Positions 1,505-7,268 of a stretch of DNA of 20,035 nt are shown here, piece after piece (position 1 is the first letter of the stretch; every line of letters begins with the position of its first letter). Location: the IMG/VR virus record IMGVR_UViG_3300004457_000284, positions 1 to 20,035 of that record; one strand, written 5' to 3'. The stretch comes from a virus. A program made the translations under genes and the position numbers. The notes beneath the pieces are model-generated. The model had not been told where the DNA came from and did no database searches. It worked only from the letters and a program-made list of their open reading frames with translations.

Positions 1505-2083
1505 ATGAAGAAACTAACGACACACGTAAGTGTTGTAGGTAAGGCAATTTATCCACACCTTAACAAACCAGACGTTAAATTTAATGACGCAGGTGAATAT
1601 AAGGTGACTTTGGAAGTCGCTAAATCAGAAGCTACCGACATGATTAAATTATTTGATGATGCACAGGCAGACAGTCTAAAAACAGCGATTGCAGAAAACA
1701 AAGGCAAAAAGGTAAAGGAAAGTCCTCACCCACGATATAATGTTGAAGGAGATAAAGTCTTCTTCATCTTTAAACTAAAAGCATCAGGAGTTAATAAACA
1801 AACTAAGGAAACTTTTACACAAAGACCTCAGTTACTTGATGCACAAAAGCAACCACACCCTATTGAAAAATCAATTTGGGGTGGGTCTAAACTTAAAATT
1901 GCTTATGAACTAGTACCATACTCAGCACCATTTGGTGCAGGTATTACTGCTAGAATAAAAGCAGTTCAAATTTTAGAACTTGTAGAAGGTAAATCAGATA
2001 CACCTTTTGAAAAAGAAGATGGCTATAAAGCCGAAGTCAACTCAGATGTTCAGACAGAAGTTCAAACGAGTTCAGATTTCTAA
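1505..2083 (+). CDS. gp2.5: Single-stranded DNA-binding protein (T7 gp2.5-like)
   Basis: It coats single-stranded DNA at the replication fork and, by analogy with T7, contacts polymerase and helicase through its C-terminal tail. The 192-residue product is shorter than T7 gp2.5 (232 aa). It shares the OB-fold core signature GGSKLKIAYELVPYSAPFGAG near residues 125-145, which parallels the T7 GGGSKLKVKYSLVPY block. The tail is mildly acidic and ends in Phe, as in T7, where the terminal Phe is functionally important. The acidic tail is much shorter than in T7. The start is well fixed by AAAGGAG at 1491-1497, seven bases before ATG. It is the first gene of a tightly packed replication operon, and its end overlaps the endonuclease gene. 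Confidence 0.93.
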   Translation: MKKLTTHVSVVGKAIYPHLNKPDVKFNDAGEYKVTLEVAKSEATDMIKLFDDAQADSLKTAIAENKGKKVKESPHPRYNVEGDKVFFIFKLKASGVNKQTKETFTQRPQLLDAQKQPHPIEKSIWGGSKLKIAYELVPYSAPFGAGITARIKAVQILELVEGKSDTPFEKEDGYKAEVNSDVQTEVQTSSDF

Positions 2084-2501: not shown

Positions 2502-2982
2502 ATACATTGTGATACATTGTTCACAAACTAGACCTTCACAAAAGATAGGTGCTAAAGATATAGATAGGTGGCACAGAGAAAGAGGTTGGTTAAAAATAGG
2601 TTATGCCAAAGTTATTAAAAGAGATGGTACTGTTGAGCAAGGCAGGGCAGATGATGAACTACAAGCACATGTTAAAGAATATAATCATGTATCAACTTCA
2701 GTTTGTGTAGTTGGTGGTGCAGTAGAAGAAAACTGGAAAGAACCAGAAGATAATTTTACAGGAGAACAATGGGAAAGTTTAAAGAAAGTTTTAGAAGAAC
2801 TAGTAATTAAATTTCCTGAAGCAAGAATTGTAGGACATTATGAACTTGATGAAAGAAAAACATGTCCTAACTTTAATGTCAGAGAATATTTATTAAACGA
2901 AGATATTAAAGGTTACAAATTCGCAGACAGCACAGTCACTGATGGCGACATACAGGAAATGAAAGATGCAGGAGAACTCTAG
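2482..2982 (+). CDS. gp3.5: N-acetylmuramoyl-L-alanine amidase (T7 lysozyme-like)
   Basis: This Amidase_2-family zinc enzyme cleaves the amide bond between muramic acid and the stem peptide. In T7 it also binds and inhibits the phage RNA polymerase. The zinc ligands are H12 (IHCSQT), H119 (GHYE) and C128 (TCPNF), and the catalytic Tyr and Lys equivalents are Y41 and K126. The N-terminal half tracks T7 lysozyme closely (KPSQ, WH, GW, GY, IKRDGTVE). Two differences stand out. The His after the catalytic Tyr in T7 (GYHF) is Ala here (GYAKV), and the H119-C128 spacing is one residue longer. The product is 166 aa against 151 in T7, with an acidic C-terminal extension. AAGGA upstream supports this ATG. 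The 3' end overlaps the primase gene by 17 bases. Confidence 0.94.
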   Translation: MARLETKYIVIHCSQTRPSQKIGAKDIDRWHRERGWLKIGYAKVIKRDGTVEQGRADDELQAHVKEYNHVSTSVCVVGGAVEENWKEPEDNFTGEQWESLKKVLEELVIKFPEARIVGHYELDERKTCPNFNVREYLLNEDIKGYKFADSTVTDGDIQEMKDAGEL

Positions 2983-4570
2983 CAATTTCATCAGACATGC
3001 ACCATGCGAAAACTGTGATAGCCAAGACAATTTAGCTATCTACCTAACCCCTGACGGAAGTCATGGGCATACCTACTGTTTTGGTTGTCACAGCTACGAA
3101 AAAACTAATGGCGAACTTCCTGAAGTTGCCACAACTAAGAAAATTACAAATATGATTGAAGGAATAACAGAAGCATTACCAAGTAGAAAAATTAATAGTG
3201 AGACTTGTAAAAAGTTTAATTATGAAACTGGAACTTACAAAGGTGAGCCAGTGCATATCGCTAATTATTATGACAAAGATTATAATAAGGTAGCACAGAA
3301 GCTACGATTTGCTGACAAGAGATTTATATGGTTAGGAGACCCAGATAAAATTACATTGTTTGGTCAACAAGTATGGCGAGAGGGTGGAGAAAAATCTAAG
3401 ATAATTTTAACAGAAGGTGAACTAGATTGCCTTTCTGTTAGTGCAGTACAGGGTAACAAATATCCAGTTTGTTCTATACCTTCAGGTTCAGCTAGTGCTA
3501 AGAAATTTATTAAAAAAGAACTTCAATTTTTATCTAAATTTAGCAGTATCATTTTAATGTTCGATACAGATGAAGCAGGAGTTAAGGCTTCAGTTGAAGT
3601 TGCTAATTTATTACCAGTAAGAAAAGTTAAGATAGCAAGACTACCTGCAAAAGACCCAAGTGAGTTATTACAAAAAGGACAGGGTTCTAAAATTATAGAT
3701 GCTATGTGGGAAGCGAAAAATTATACACCACAAGGTATTATTCAAGGTTCAGATACTAAAGACTTACTATTAAATGATGAAGAAGTAGAAACTATTCCTT
3801 ATCATTGGCAAGGTTTAAATAAAAAATTAAAAGGAATTAGACGTAGTGAAATAATTTTACTATGTGCAGGTTCAGGTACAGGTAAATCTTTAGTGTGTAA
3901 AGAACTAACGTATAATTTAGTTTCTAATAAACATAAGGTTGGTTACTTTGGTTTAGAAGAAAGTGTTAGTGAAAGTGTTAAAGGAATAATTTCTGTTGCA
4001 CTTAGCAATCCTATACATGACCCAGATAAAAGAGCAAAAATATCTGAGGATAAAATTCTTACTGCGTATCATAAAATAAAAAATTATATGTGTTTCTATG
4101 ACCATAAAGGTGCATCAAGCCTTGATGATATTATGAATAGAATGAGATACATGGTTAATGGTTCAAATTGTAAAATCATTATCTTAGATAATATTTCACT
4201 ACTTATTTCAGGGTTAGATACAGCTAATGAAAGAAGATTAATTGATTCAACAATGACCCAATTAAGAAATCTTTGCTTAGAACTTAATTGTGCAATGTTT
4301 ATTGTGGCTCATTTAAAACGACCAGATACAAATTTTGGACATGAGGAAGGTAGTCAAACTTCTTTATCTCATCTTAGAGGTAGTCATGGTCTTGCTATGC
4401 TTAGTAATGCAGTAATTGGTTTTGAAAGAAATCAACAACATGCCACTGATAGTAACATTATGAATGTTAGAGTTTTAAAGAATAGGTTTTGTGGAAGTAC
4501 AGGAGTGGCAACTTCATTAGTCTATAATGAAATCACAGGTCGTTTATTAGAAAGTGTTTTTGATGAATGA
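2966..4570 (+). CDS. gp4: DNA primase-helicase (T7 gp4-like)
   Basis: This bifunctional replication protein combines an N-terminal zinc-binding primase with a C-terminal hexameric helicase. The zinc finger is C14-C17 and C38-C41. The TOPRIM catalytic residues are E150 (EGELD) and D200/D202 (FDTDEAG). The helicase has Walker A GSGTGKS at 302-308, the Walker B Asp at 408 (ILDNIS), a sensor His at 449 (VAHLKRPD) and an arginine-finger candidate R507 (KNRFCGSTG). Its 534 residues compare with 566 in T7. The difference is mainly at the C-terminus, which ends soon after the helicase core with a short ESVFDE instead of the long acidic tail by which T7 gp4 binds polymerase. M63 sits at the position of the T7 4B internal start. 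The gene begins inside the amidase gene, with AGGAAA upstream. Confidence 0.97.
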   Translation: MQENSSNFIRHAPCENCDSQDNLAIYLTPDGSHGHTYCFGCHSYEKTNGELPEVATTKKITNMIEGITEALPSRKINSETCKKFNYETGTYKGEPVHIANYYDKDYNKVAQKLRFADKRFIWLGDPDKITLFGQQVWREGGEKSKIILTEGELDCLSVSAVQGNKYPVCSIPSGSASAKKFIKKELQFLSKFSSIILMFDTDEAGVKASVEVANLLPVRKVKIARLPAKDPSELLQKGQGSKIIDAMWEAKNYTPQGIIQGSDTKDLLLNDEEVETIPYHWQGLNKKLKGIRRSEIILLCAGSGTGKSLVCKELTYNLVSNKHKVGYFGLEESVSESVKGIISVALSNPIHDPDKRAKISEDKILTAYHKIKNYMCFYDHKGASSLDDIMNRMRYMVNGSNCKIIILDNISLLISGLDTANERRLIDSTMTQLRNLCLELNCAMFIVAHLKRPDTNFGHEEGSQTSLSHLRGSHGLAMLSNAVIGFERNQQHATDSNIMNVRVLKNRFCGSTGVATSLVYNEITGRLLESVFDE

Positions 4571-4832
4571 AGCAATGCTAACTAAATTTATTTTAAGTTA
4601 TTTAATACAGAAGCCTGAATATTTAAAATTATCAGGTAAGCAACAACGAATAGCATTTGAAACTTTTAAAACAATAATGACTGCTATTTATCAAGCAATA
4701 AAATTTGACAACATATTTCCAGTAATAGTTTGTGGAGACATACAGGCTAGGAAAACAATTAACCAAGCACTTAAATCAGTGCAACCAATTTTACCAAGCA
4801 TAGAAAAAATAACTGTGCATTTGGTTCAATAA
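4563..4832 (+). CDS. Hypothetical protein between helicase and polymerase
   Basis: I do not recognise this 89-residue protein. It is a mixed helix-strand sequence rich in Lys, Ile and Gln, with no signal peptide, no clear membrane segment and only one Cys. The N-terminal half looks helical (AMLTKFILSYLIQKPEYL), followed by a hydrophobic strand (FPVIVCGD). The frame opens at a GTG at 4554, but the ATG at 4563 is the better start. It overlaps the last codons of the helicase gene by eight bases, suggesting translational coupling, and another ATG lies at 4575. Its place between primase-helicase and DNA polymerase suggests an accessory role at the replication fork, but that rests on position alone. 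Confidence 0.72.
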   Translation: MNEAMLTKFILSYLIQKPEYLKLSGKQQRIAFETFKTIMTAIYQAIKFDNIFPVIVCGDIQARKTINQALKSVQPILPSIEKITVHLVQ

Positions 4833-4844
4833 AGAAAGTGAAAC

Positions 4845-6614
4845 ATGAAACTGATATTAGACTTAGAGACCAATGGGTTTCTAGATAAAAAAGATTTAGT
4901 AATTCATTGTATAGTTTGCAAGGATATAGAGACTGGTGAGGTCTATTCATATAATCCTAATACTATTAATGATGCACTAGAGTTACTAAACAAAGCTGAA
5001 GTTCTTATTGGTCATAATATTACAGGTTTTGACATAAGGGTGTTAAAGCATGTATTAAAATATGAATTTAAAGGTAAAGCATTTGATACGTTACTTTGTT
5101 CAAGACTTATATGGACTAATAGACTTGAACTTGATTACAAATTTAAACAGATGCCACCTAAACTTTATGGAAGACATTCTCTTGAAAGTTGGGGTTATAG
5201 ATTAGGTTTAAGAAAAGGTGATTACCAAGAACATTCTACATTTGATGAATACAATCAAGATATGTTGGAGTATTGCCAACGTGACGTAGAAGTAACAGAT
5301 TTACTATTCAAAGAAATAATAAGAAGTAATTATTCAGAAGATGCAATTACTTTAGAACATAAGTTTGCATATTGGGTACAAAAACAAGAAGAACAAGGTA
5401 TTGATTTTGATGAGAGGTCTGCTGAGACCCTACATTCAATCCTTACAAAGAAAAGATTGGAGATTAGTGACAAGCTATCTTTAGTCTTTTCTGAATGGAA
5501 GAAGTCTACAGGTTTTAAAACTTATAAAAGAGACAATATTAAAAGAGGAATAAAAGCAGGAGTTCCTGTTGAACAATTCAAAACTGAAATATTTAATCCA
5601 AATAGTAGAGACCATATAGCAGACAGGTTACAAAAAATACTAGGGTGGTCACCTACATCATTTACAGCGACAGGAAAACCAGAAGTGAACGAAAAAATAT
5701 TGAAAGCACTTCCATATCCTGAAGCAAAACTTTTAGCAGAATATCTTATGATAACAAAAAGATTAGGACAGTTAGCTGAAGGTGAACAAGCATACTTAAA
5801 ATTAAACAGAAAAGGAAAAATTTATGGAAAAGTCATTACTAATGGTGCATTGTCAGGCAGGTGTACGCATCATCACCCAAATCTTGCACAGTGTGTTAGC
5901 AGTGGTTCGCCATTTGGTAAAGAATTTCGTTCCTTATTTACTGCTCCTTCCAGTATGGTTATGTGTGGCATTGACTTTTCTGGTTTGGAGTTGCGTGTGT
6001 TGGCTCATTATCTCAACGTATATGACAATGGTGATTTTTCAAAAAAACTTTTGGAAGATGATATTCATACCATCAATCAAAAAGCCACAGGACTACCCAC
6101 TCGTGATAAAGCTAAAACTTTTATTTATGCTTTCATTTATGGAGCAGGAAATGAGAAACTCGGTGAAATCCTTAAAGTCAATAATGACGAAGCCAAAAGA
6201 ATAAGACAAAGATTTGAAGCATCACTACCTTCATTAAAAACTTTAACAAATACAGCTAAACATAAATTTAGACTTGCAACTTTTGTTAAAGGTTTAGATG
6301 GTAGAAAATTAATTCCTAGAGCAGAACATTCAGTTTTAAATACACTTATTCAAAGTGCAGGAGCATTACTTGTAAAACAAGGAACAATTATTCTTAATGA
6401 AGAATTACATAAGAATGGTTTTAAATGGGGTGATGACTATGCAATGGTCTTACATGTCCATGATGAAATGCAGTTCATAGTAAAACCTGAAAGACTAGAA
6501 AAATTTAAAGAAATAGCACAAGGTATGTTTAAGAAAACACAAGACCATTTTAATTTCAAATGTCAGTTAGATGGTGCAATGAAGGTTGGAAGCAACTGGA
6601 GTGAAACACACTAA
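4845..6614 (+). CDS. gp5: DNA polymerase, family A with 3'-5' exonuclease (T7 gp5-like)
   Basis: This is the replicative polymerase. The exonuclease domain has D6 and E8 (LDLETNG), IGHNITGFD and YCQRDVEVT. Polymerase motif A is GIDFSGLELR with D377. Motif B is RDKAKTFIYAFIYGAG with K424 and Y428; Y428 corresponds to T7 Y526 and E. coli Pol I F762, so this is a Tyr-762 polymerase. Motif C is VHDE with H539 and D540. The protein is 589 aa against 704 in T7. Much of the loss is in the thumb: only 32 residues separate W218 from F250 (FNPNSRDH), against about 70 in T7, where the thioredoxin-binding loop sits. The remaining loop is basic. A block around 5870-6190 uses CGT, CTC, TTG and GTG codons more than its surroundings. 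The start ATG has only a weak AG-rich upstream site. Confidence 0.97.
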   Translation: MKLILDLETNGFLDKKDLVIHCIVCKDIETGEVYSYNPNTINDALELLNKAEVLIGHNITGFDIRVLKHVLKYEFKGKAFDTLLCSRLIWTNRLELDYKFKQMPPKLYGRHSLESWGYRLGLRKGDYQEHSTFDEYNQDMLEYCQRDVEVTDLLFKEIIRSNYSEDAITLEHKFAYWVQKQEEQGIDFDERSAETLHSILTKKRLEISDKLSLVFSEWKKSTGFKTYKRDNIKRGIKAGVPVEQFKTEIFNPNSRDHIADRLQKILGWSPTSFTATGKPEVNEKILKALPYPEAKLLAEYLMITKRLGQLAEGEQAYLKLNRKGKIYGKVITNGALSGRCTHHHPNLAQCVSSGSPFGKEFRSLFTAPSSMVMCGIDFSGLELRVLAHYLNVYDNGDFSKKLLEDDIHTINQKATGLPTRDKAKTFIYAFIYGAGNEKLGEILKVNNDEAKRIRQRFEASLPSLKTLTNTAKHKFRLATFVKGLDGRKLIPRAEHSVLNTLIQSAGALLVKQGTIILNEELHKNGFKWGDDYAMVLHVHDEMQFIVKPERLEKFKEIAQGMFKKTQDHFNFKCQLDGAMKVGSNWSETH

Positions 6615-6962: not shown

Positions 6963-7268
6963 ATGAAAAAATTATTAAAAACTAAAATTAAATTACCAGA
7001 CATAGATACAGAAGATTTTCCATACAAATTTTATAAAGTCTGGTGGAGTGATATTATTTCAAGTCCTAATTGGGAGACAATTCCACAACTAAAAAAATCA
7101 AAGACAGCAGTGTGCATAACAATGGGTTGGTTGTTATCAACAAATAAAAACACTTACGTTTTCATTGGTGACATTAATTTCAATGAAGATGGAACAATCA
7201 ATGAGGGTGGTAACTCAACAGTAATACCAAAATCAAACATACTAAAACTAAAGGAGATTAAACTATGA
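6963..7268 (+). CDS. Conserved-looking hypothetical phage protein
   Basis: I cannot assign a function to this 101-residue protein. The body reads as a small beta-rich domain: YKVWWSDIISSPNW near residues 24-37, an alternating hydrophobic strand pair (TAVCITMGWLLS and NTYVFIGDINF), and a C-terminal STVIPKSNILKLKEI. Trp and Gly content and the lack of low-complexity sequence argue for a real folded protein. The start follows the previous stop after two bases and has no visible ribosome site, so it probably depends on reinitiation. Its stop overlaps the exonuclease start in an ATGA junction. Position suggests a regulator or accessory factor of DNA metabolism, without direct evidence. Confidence 0.72.
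   Translation: MKKLLKTKIKLPDIDTEDFPYKFYKVWWSDIISSPNWETIPQLKKSKTAVCITMGWLLSTNKNTYVFIGDINFNEDGTINEGGNSTVIPKSNILKLKEIKL

Follow-up and report, generated by a model that had tools for sequence, protein, structure and literature searches.

The DNA polymerase encoded in the analysed DNA is a T7-like enzyme that lacks the T7-type thioredoxin-binding thumb domain and carries a short loop with a conserved basic turn. We consider it rather probable that this loop is a compact hairpin older than T7, able to grip duplex DNA without thioredoxin, and that the T7 domain is its later enlargement.

The polymerase and its short thumb loop

The window, by which we mean the whole stretch of DNA analysed, is a 20,035-base fragment deposited as a virus record. 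The polymerase it encodes shares 98.3% identity over its full length with the enzyme of Pelagibacter phage HTVC011P, a Stopavirus of the Autographiviridae that infects SAR11 and has an annotated integrase gene. The gene order (RNA polymerase, SSB, endonuclease, lysozyme, primase-helicase, small gene, polymerase) is the same in HTVC011P, and the succession of SSB, endonuclease, lysozyme, helicase and polymerase is similar to that of T7. The following genes are referred to below:

1505..2083, plus strand: gp2.5-like SSB ending in ...EVQTSSDF, with the terminal Phe kept (phrog_112; PF21265, 46.4 bits)
2966..4570, plus strand: T7 gp4-like primase-helicase of 534 aa, ending in TGRLLESVFDE (phrog_239, 3.4e-165)
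4563..4832, plus strand: small gene of 89 aa between helicase and polymerase, overlapping the helicase end by 8 bases (ORF family)
4845..6614, plus strand: T7-like family A DNA polymerase of 589 aa (PF00476, 157.4 bits against a cut-off of 34.3; phrog_17)

Downstream of the polymerase, positions 6963-7268 of the window match phrog_25889; the HTVC019P member of this family is the gene directly upstream of the polymerase.

An AlphaFold2 model of the polymerase was built with 78 sequences (the window and contigs). Its mean pLDDT was 94.5, and it aligned with T7 2ajq_A (VIA) over 586 residues with a Z of 42.0 and an rmsd of 2.3. The family A polymerase residues D377, Y428 and D540 are conserved (alignments A1/A5), and the acidic residues of the 3'-5' exonuclease, D6, E8, D63 and D147, are invariant in alignment A5; by comparison with T7 and Pol I we take the latter to be catalytic. 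The enzyme thus shares with T7 gp5 the family A exonuclease-polymerase fold and the tyrosine at the T7 526 / E. coli 762 position (Y428). It is shorter than T7 gp5 (704 aa) and lacks the ~71-residue thioredoxin loop, the W579/front-patch loop and the 141-155 insertion. The regions concerned are as follows:

5490..5591, plus strand: thumb loop, residues 216-249, from F215 (end of helix H) to F250 (FN motif), defined by alignment and census
5580..5582, plus strand: K246, aligned to T7 E330 by an ungapped count back from F250
5217..5261, plus strand: exonuclease-domain residues 125-139, at the site of a T7 insertion of 15 residues (141-155) with E148/E149/E153, by alignment
6246..6290, plus strand: residues 468-482, a short front loop; the T7 loop is 14 residues longer, by alignment

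Between the two F equivalents, the thumb loop has 34 residues in the window polymerase and 72 in T7. Counted from W218 (codon 5496-5498) to F250 (codon 5592-5594), 31 residues lie in between, against 69 between the T7 equivalents W264 and F334, which bears out the short span described in the original prediction. The absence of a T7-type thioredoxin-binding thumb domain, also claimed there, was confirmed in a 16-sequence alignment, in which T7 residues 272-299 and 307-316 had no counterpart in the window polymerase. The possibility that the loop is displaced to another place, named beforehand as a reason to abandon the idea, was checked in the same alignment and rejected, as the window protein has over its whole length no insertion of at least 2 residues relative to T7. 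Residues 216-249 contain nine Lys/Arg and four Asp/Glu, so the loop is indeed Lys/Arg-rich. It is not a sequencing artefact, because the polymerase agrees with that of HTVC011P as stated above and a 34-residue loop was found in all 19 non-redundant members of the close clade to which the window belongs.

Further T7 segments are absent: residues 141-155 in the exonuclease domain, residues 574-587 before the GLDGR motif, along with other or smaller stretches. The T7 residues E148/E149/E153 form salt bridges to the thioredoxin domain (PMC5984650). We rejected the exonuclease insertion as a clean T7-type marker; it is present in 5 of the 6 T7-type representatives and in some other polymerases too. 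The front loop has 15 residues in the window polymerase and 29-31 in the T7-type representatives. W579 and the first part of the basic KWKRR stretch fall within T7 residues 574-587; the W579 beta-loop is described at the fork, and the adjacent front basic patch binds the helicase tail in T7 (PMC12593628). Within the thumb loop, the thioredoxin contact residues E319 and E330 of T7 are replaced by G235 and K246; E330 pairs with thioredoxin R73 in simulation (PMC5984650).

Loop length, taken as the number of residues between the equivalents of F215 and F250, was compared in polymerases drawn from 352 loci and reduced to 191 non-redundant rows (190 phage rows and E. coli Pol I). Polymerases shorter than 450 aa were excluded unless named, and some loci are the same contig twice. 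As the loci are the best 80 per similarity-ranked scan, class sizes do not represent abundances. Among the matches listed, the short classes comprised 15 (n = 32), 22 (n = 19) and 30-35 residues (n = 95), the last being the commonest among the 190 phage relatives. The longer classes, on the same basis, comprised 39-43 (n = 9), 46-51 (n = 19) and 58-62 residues (n = 8); T7-type loops had 61-72 residues (n = 6), and those of SP6 and phiKMV had 95 and 114. E. coli Pol I (Klenow), mainly a repair enzyme, shares with the window polymerase the thumb-palm-fingers fold and the FN motif after helix H, but has no hairpin. About 3 residues lie at that place, a value that hinges on where the aligner puts the end of helix H; the window loop is therefore short only relative to T7 and is an insertion relative to Pol I.

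The polymerases of HTVC011P (near-identical), KM23-C739, CRP-113, LUZ100, RHEph01, Syn5, S-CBP2 and S-EIV1 share a 30-34-residue loop with a PK-x-NN-x-x-x-G-Y-like motif or its YKRDNxKRGI variant. In P-SSP7 (L091 10928-12693) and 7B11-B (L361 3827-5574), the exonuclease and polymerase domains are annotated as separate overlapping ORFs. A long loop was rejected as the definition of the T7 type, since the loops of phiCbK (81), CcrBL9 (63), Lo5R7ANS (66) and BB8 (62) are long and the front-patch loop is missing there. Long thumb loops arose more than once, as those of phiCbK, CcrBL9 and Lo5R7ANS are unlike that of T7 and come with no front-patch loop.

The basic turn and its putative partners

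Within the loop lies a conserved basic turn:

5523..5567, plus strand: basic turn, residues 227-241 (YKRDNIKRGIKAGVP), conservation among 19 clade members

The AlphaFold2 model has strands at residues 218-226 and 241-248, with a pLDDT of 87-92 in the blocks that cover the loop. We read this confidently predicted structure as a beta-hairpin with a basic turn, whose basic residues are K228, R229, K233, R234 and K237. Among the 19 clade members, the pairwise identity of the turn was 0.855, against 0.687 for the whole protein; that of the entire loop (216-249) was 0.653, which is not above average. K228, R229, D230, N231, G235, G239, V240 and P241 were invariant in all 19. In the 30-35-residue class, among the matches listed, K at position -22 was found in 88 of 95 rows, N at -19 in 85, G at -15 in 88 and G at -11 in 88.

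The charge just before the FN motif largely separates the T7 type from the rest. Among the matches listed, Lys or Arg occurs within 8 residues before the F in 179 of 182 other phage representatives and in none of the 6 T7-type ones; VP4, CRW-SP1 and PP81, T7-type phages added later, likewise have no Lys/Arg just before the F. At position -4, the other phage representatives listed have Lys/Arg in 154 of 182 cases and Asp/Glu in 10. The T7-type polymerases have Glu there (T7 E330; n = 6) or, in the three added phages, Q, T and V. A definition of the T7 type by Glu at -4 was rejected for this reason, and its safe form is the lack of Lys/Arg.

We propose that the compact thumb hairpin of T7-superfamily polymerases predates T7. 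It would rise from the thumb as a rigid beta-hairpin between helix H and the FN motif, with a turn rich in Lys/Arg, and most likely would run along the primer-template duplex, holding the phosphate backbone directly. Such a grip would be independent of thioredoxin. In the T7 lineage (Studiervirinae), the hairpin would have been enlarged by ~38 residues into a flexible domain that needs to be ordered by host thioredoxin before its basic residues face the DNA. In a simulation of T7, basic residues of the loop become exposed once thioredoxin is bound and then bind the DNA backbone (PMC5984650). With its Lys/Arg before F250, the window hairpin may offer basic residues to the duplex unaided, whereas the T7 loop needs thioredoxin.

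Plant organellar polymerases and human pol gamma have thumb insertions that are linked to processivity or to contact with the duplex, and those of the plant enzymes have been modelled against duplex DNA (PMC7699545); these insertions differ from the window hairpin and serve as a precedent. The charge and place of the hairpin, together with these analogies, point to a probable DNA contact, through which the hairpin would contribute to processivity without thioredoxin. Direct DNA contact is the best-fitting of the three routes to processivity that had been suggested at the outset. A basic loop alone need not suffice, because T7 gp5 without thioredoxin is poorly processive despite its basic loop.

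The basic residues could instead serve the acidic tail of a partner protein. According to this alternative, the hairpin would be mainly a protein dock for the tail of the SSB, joined in most relatives by that of the helicase; processivity would come from tethering of the replisome and not from a direct DNA grip. The acidic gp4 and gp2.5 tails of T7 attach to basic patches of both the thioredoxin domain and the gp5 front (PMC12593628, PMC7699545), and the window SSB retains its terminal Phe. The helicases bear on this reading in two ways. The window helicase ends in ...TGRLLESVFDE (T7 gp4, ...STDWSNDTDF), so it has the short C-terminus without a long acidic tail that had been described, and also lacks the terminal Phe. 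In T7, processivity falls from 17 kb to about 5 kb once the tail is removed (PMC12593628). We compared helicase ends in 173 rows among the matches listed, 25 with the small gene and 148 without it. In the latter set, the helicase ended in Phe or Tyr in 128 rows and otherwise in 20; in the former, a terminal Phe was found in 0 of 25 and Tyr in 2. The median number of residues after TGRLxE was 5 in the small-gene loci and 12 in the others. Over the last 12 residues, the two sets had a similar mean net charge (-2.8 vs -3.3), so what sets the window helicase apart is less a lack of acidity than its shortness and the missing terminal Phe.

Most short-loop relatives whose helicase was read keep an acidic tail with a terminal Phe, unlike the window. 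Outside the small-gene clade, among the matches listed, a terminal aromatic residue was found in 27 of 30 rows for loops of 15 residues, in 16 of 17 for 22, in 55 of 60 for 30-35, in 20 of 26 for 39-52 and in 10 of 15 for at least 58. The tail is kept in all loop classes; it therefore appears to predate the thioredoxin domain of T7 and does not go with a particular loop length; judged from the sequences, its absence is a mark of one clade. The view that the short helicase tail accompanies the short loop cannot be upheld, given the 55 of 60 short-loop representatives elsewhere that end in Phe/Tyr. A helicase end that predates the T7 patches needs an older basic site, which speaks for the dock. 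In the window clade, the basic turn is highly conserved although the helicase has no tail, which speaks against it. We regard the dock as rather unlikely to be the main role and favour the direct grip on DNA.

A second alternative makes the product of the small gene at 4563 a dedicated processivity or coupling factor that replaces both the helicase tail and thioredoxin. The gene adjoins helicase and polymerase, and no helicase with a terminal Phe was found in its loci. Related ORFs numbered 92 among the matches listed, including the window copy and repeats of the same contig. The 13 tree rows with the gene form one polymerase clade (99/97 in the 96-row tree and 100/98 in the 103-row tree, both described below), and one clade is one event, so the association with the missing tail is unreplicated. 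The window protein gave no PHROG, Pfam or NCBIfam match; family members gave scattered, weak PHROG matches only (best 0.0036); the profile search against solved structures gave nothing below E 0.09, and fold searches of the model against the PDB gave no match with E <=0.001 and no Z >=5. The AlphaFold2 model (pLDDT 94.1) has the order helix-helix-helix-strand-helix-helix-strand, by which a degenerate thioredoxin (N-V-Y-P-V motif) was ruled out. The HTVC011P record starts the gene 12 bases further in (85 aa); the fixed length of the family supports the start at 4563 (89 aa).

Besides the HTVC011P protein, the closest fold was a 74-aa product of HTVC019P (Foldseek TM 0.64/0.75, probability 1.00, E 0.055). 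A profile comparison of the two (probability 26, E 7e-4, one template) is suggestive only, and we consider the HTVC019P product a probable structural relative on the strength of the models. It follows the helicase in Pelagivirus, where the ...DDF/DDY helicase tails are kept, which weakens the case for the 4563 product as a tail replacement. The earlier suggestion that this neighbour aids processivity thus loses ground, the gene being specific to a clade and its relative co-occurring with tailed helicases, and a dedicated factor of this kind is improbable.

A T7-like binding of thioredoxin, from host or phage, to the short hairpin is very improbable. The T7 segments 272-299 and 307-316 are missing, and the two glutamates of the T7 loop, E319 and E330, are replaced. 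Among 9 phage records, no PF00085 match above the cut-off was found; that of HTVC011P (39,921 bases) gave no match to this thioredoxin family, and the window record is itself a fragment. A thioredoxin-like gene does occur in some cyanophages whose polymerase loop has 30 residues. One is Syn5 gp25 (L092 10475-10771), the single weak match among the 9 records, which has a CGPC motif and a PF00085 E of 5.7e-4, below the cut-off, and sits between helicase and polymerase. Most clade A T7-like cyanophages carry thioredoxin (PMC9381782). The polymerases of Syn5, S-CBP2, P-SSP7 and 7B11-B have 30-residue loops; thioredoxin, if it acts on the sampled cyanophage polymerases, therefore works there differently from T7. 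Phage thioredoxin may serve ribonucleotide reductase.

Origin of the T7 thumb domain

A tree was computed from 96 rows, hand-picked from the 191 to span the clades, over 340 columns from F250 onward, with the loop excluded. The long-branch SP6, phiKMV, SIO1, P-SSP7 and S-EIV1 were omitted, and ProddE was not used, as its polymerase gene has an intron. The six T7-type rows formed one clade (bootstrap/aLRT 99/96), whose sister was the pair of short-loop contigs L255/L257 (99/92), followed by the short-loop Syn5/S-CBP2 (99/94). In a second tree of 103 rows, to which phiCbK, CcrBL9, VP4, CRW-SP1, PP81, Lo5R7ANS and 7B11-B had been added, the nine T7-type rows were again one clade (100/95) with L255/L257 as sister (100/98). 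The root was set with E. coli Pol I, whose branch is very long (6.93), and support is weak at several of the deep nodes. Between the root and the T7-type clade there are six nodes with bootstrap >=95, each with side branches without a T7-type loop.

Presence of the T7-type loop in the ancestor would require at least 6 separate complete losses, and a single gain in the T7 lineage therefore fits these sequences better. The terms 'lost loop' and 'remnant' used in the original prediction should accordingly give way to a short ancestral hairpin enlarged in T7 phages, the reading favoured by tree and census. That the window lineage once had the T7-type domain and lost it is barely credible: the ungapped alignment of the end of its loop to T7 323-334 argues for homology there, but the T7-type loops form one nested clade and so many complete losses would be needed. 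In L255 and L257 the thumb loop has 30 residues, yet the front loop is lengthened to 27 and 25 residues, and that of L257 ends in WKRHYLK. By sequence, these contigs are possible intermediates toward T7.

The loop also differs between close relatives. The polymerases of L272 and L300 are 84.5% identical before the loop and 83% after it; their loops have 33 and 15 residues and the middles differ. A similar mismatch was seen between the close polymerases of HTVC031P and L113. The pairs L272/L300, L098/L113 and L138/L134 are each more than 80% identical after the thumb loop, with a loop class of 33 against 15 or 22. On the 96-row tree, the loop class changed at least 19 times. These comparisons suggest that the thumb loop undergoes exchange or repeated indels. 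Such frequent switching of length and sequence may mean that the loop has several jobs or is under weak constraint between clades.

Significance for T7-like phages

T7 is the textbook minimal replisome. Its thioredoxin model has been extended to T7-like ocean phages in marine papers (PMC9860041, PMC4961962). In the titles and abstract openings of the open-licence papers that the searches listed, the short hairpin class was not described, which is not a proof of novelty. Among the sampled relatives, a polymerase without the thioredoxin domain appears to be the common state, and the clamp of T7 itself appears derived. If the domain is specific to one clade, many marine T7-like phages would achieve processivity by another means. 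We tentatively extend this to a wider proposal, which we hold to be plausible rather than probable: the thioredoxin-free basic hairpin would be the founding clamp and an exchangeable module, which phages swap while the rest of the polymerase stays unchanged, and the T7 clamp would have been built on top of it stepwise, the front basic-patch loop being lengthened first and the enlargement of the thumb domain following later. Through the sisters that combine a short thumb loop with a longer front loop, one can ask by what path a host redox protein came to serve a virus as a clamp. If the proposal is true, T7 would be an unusual end product and not the model for marine T7-like replication.
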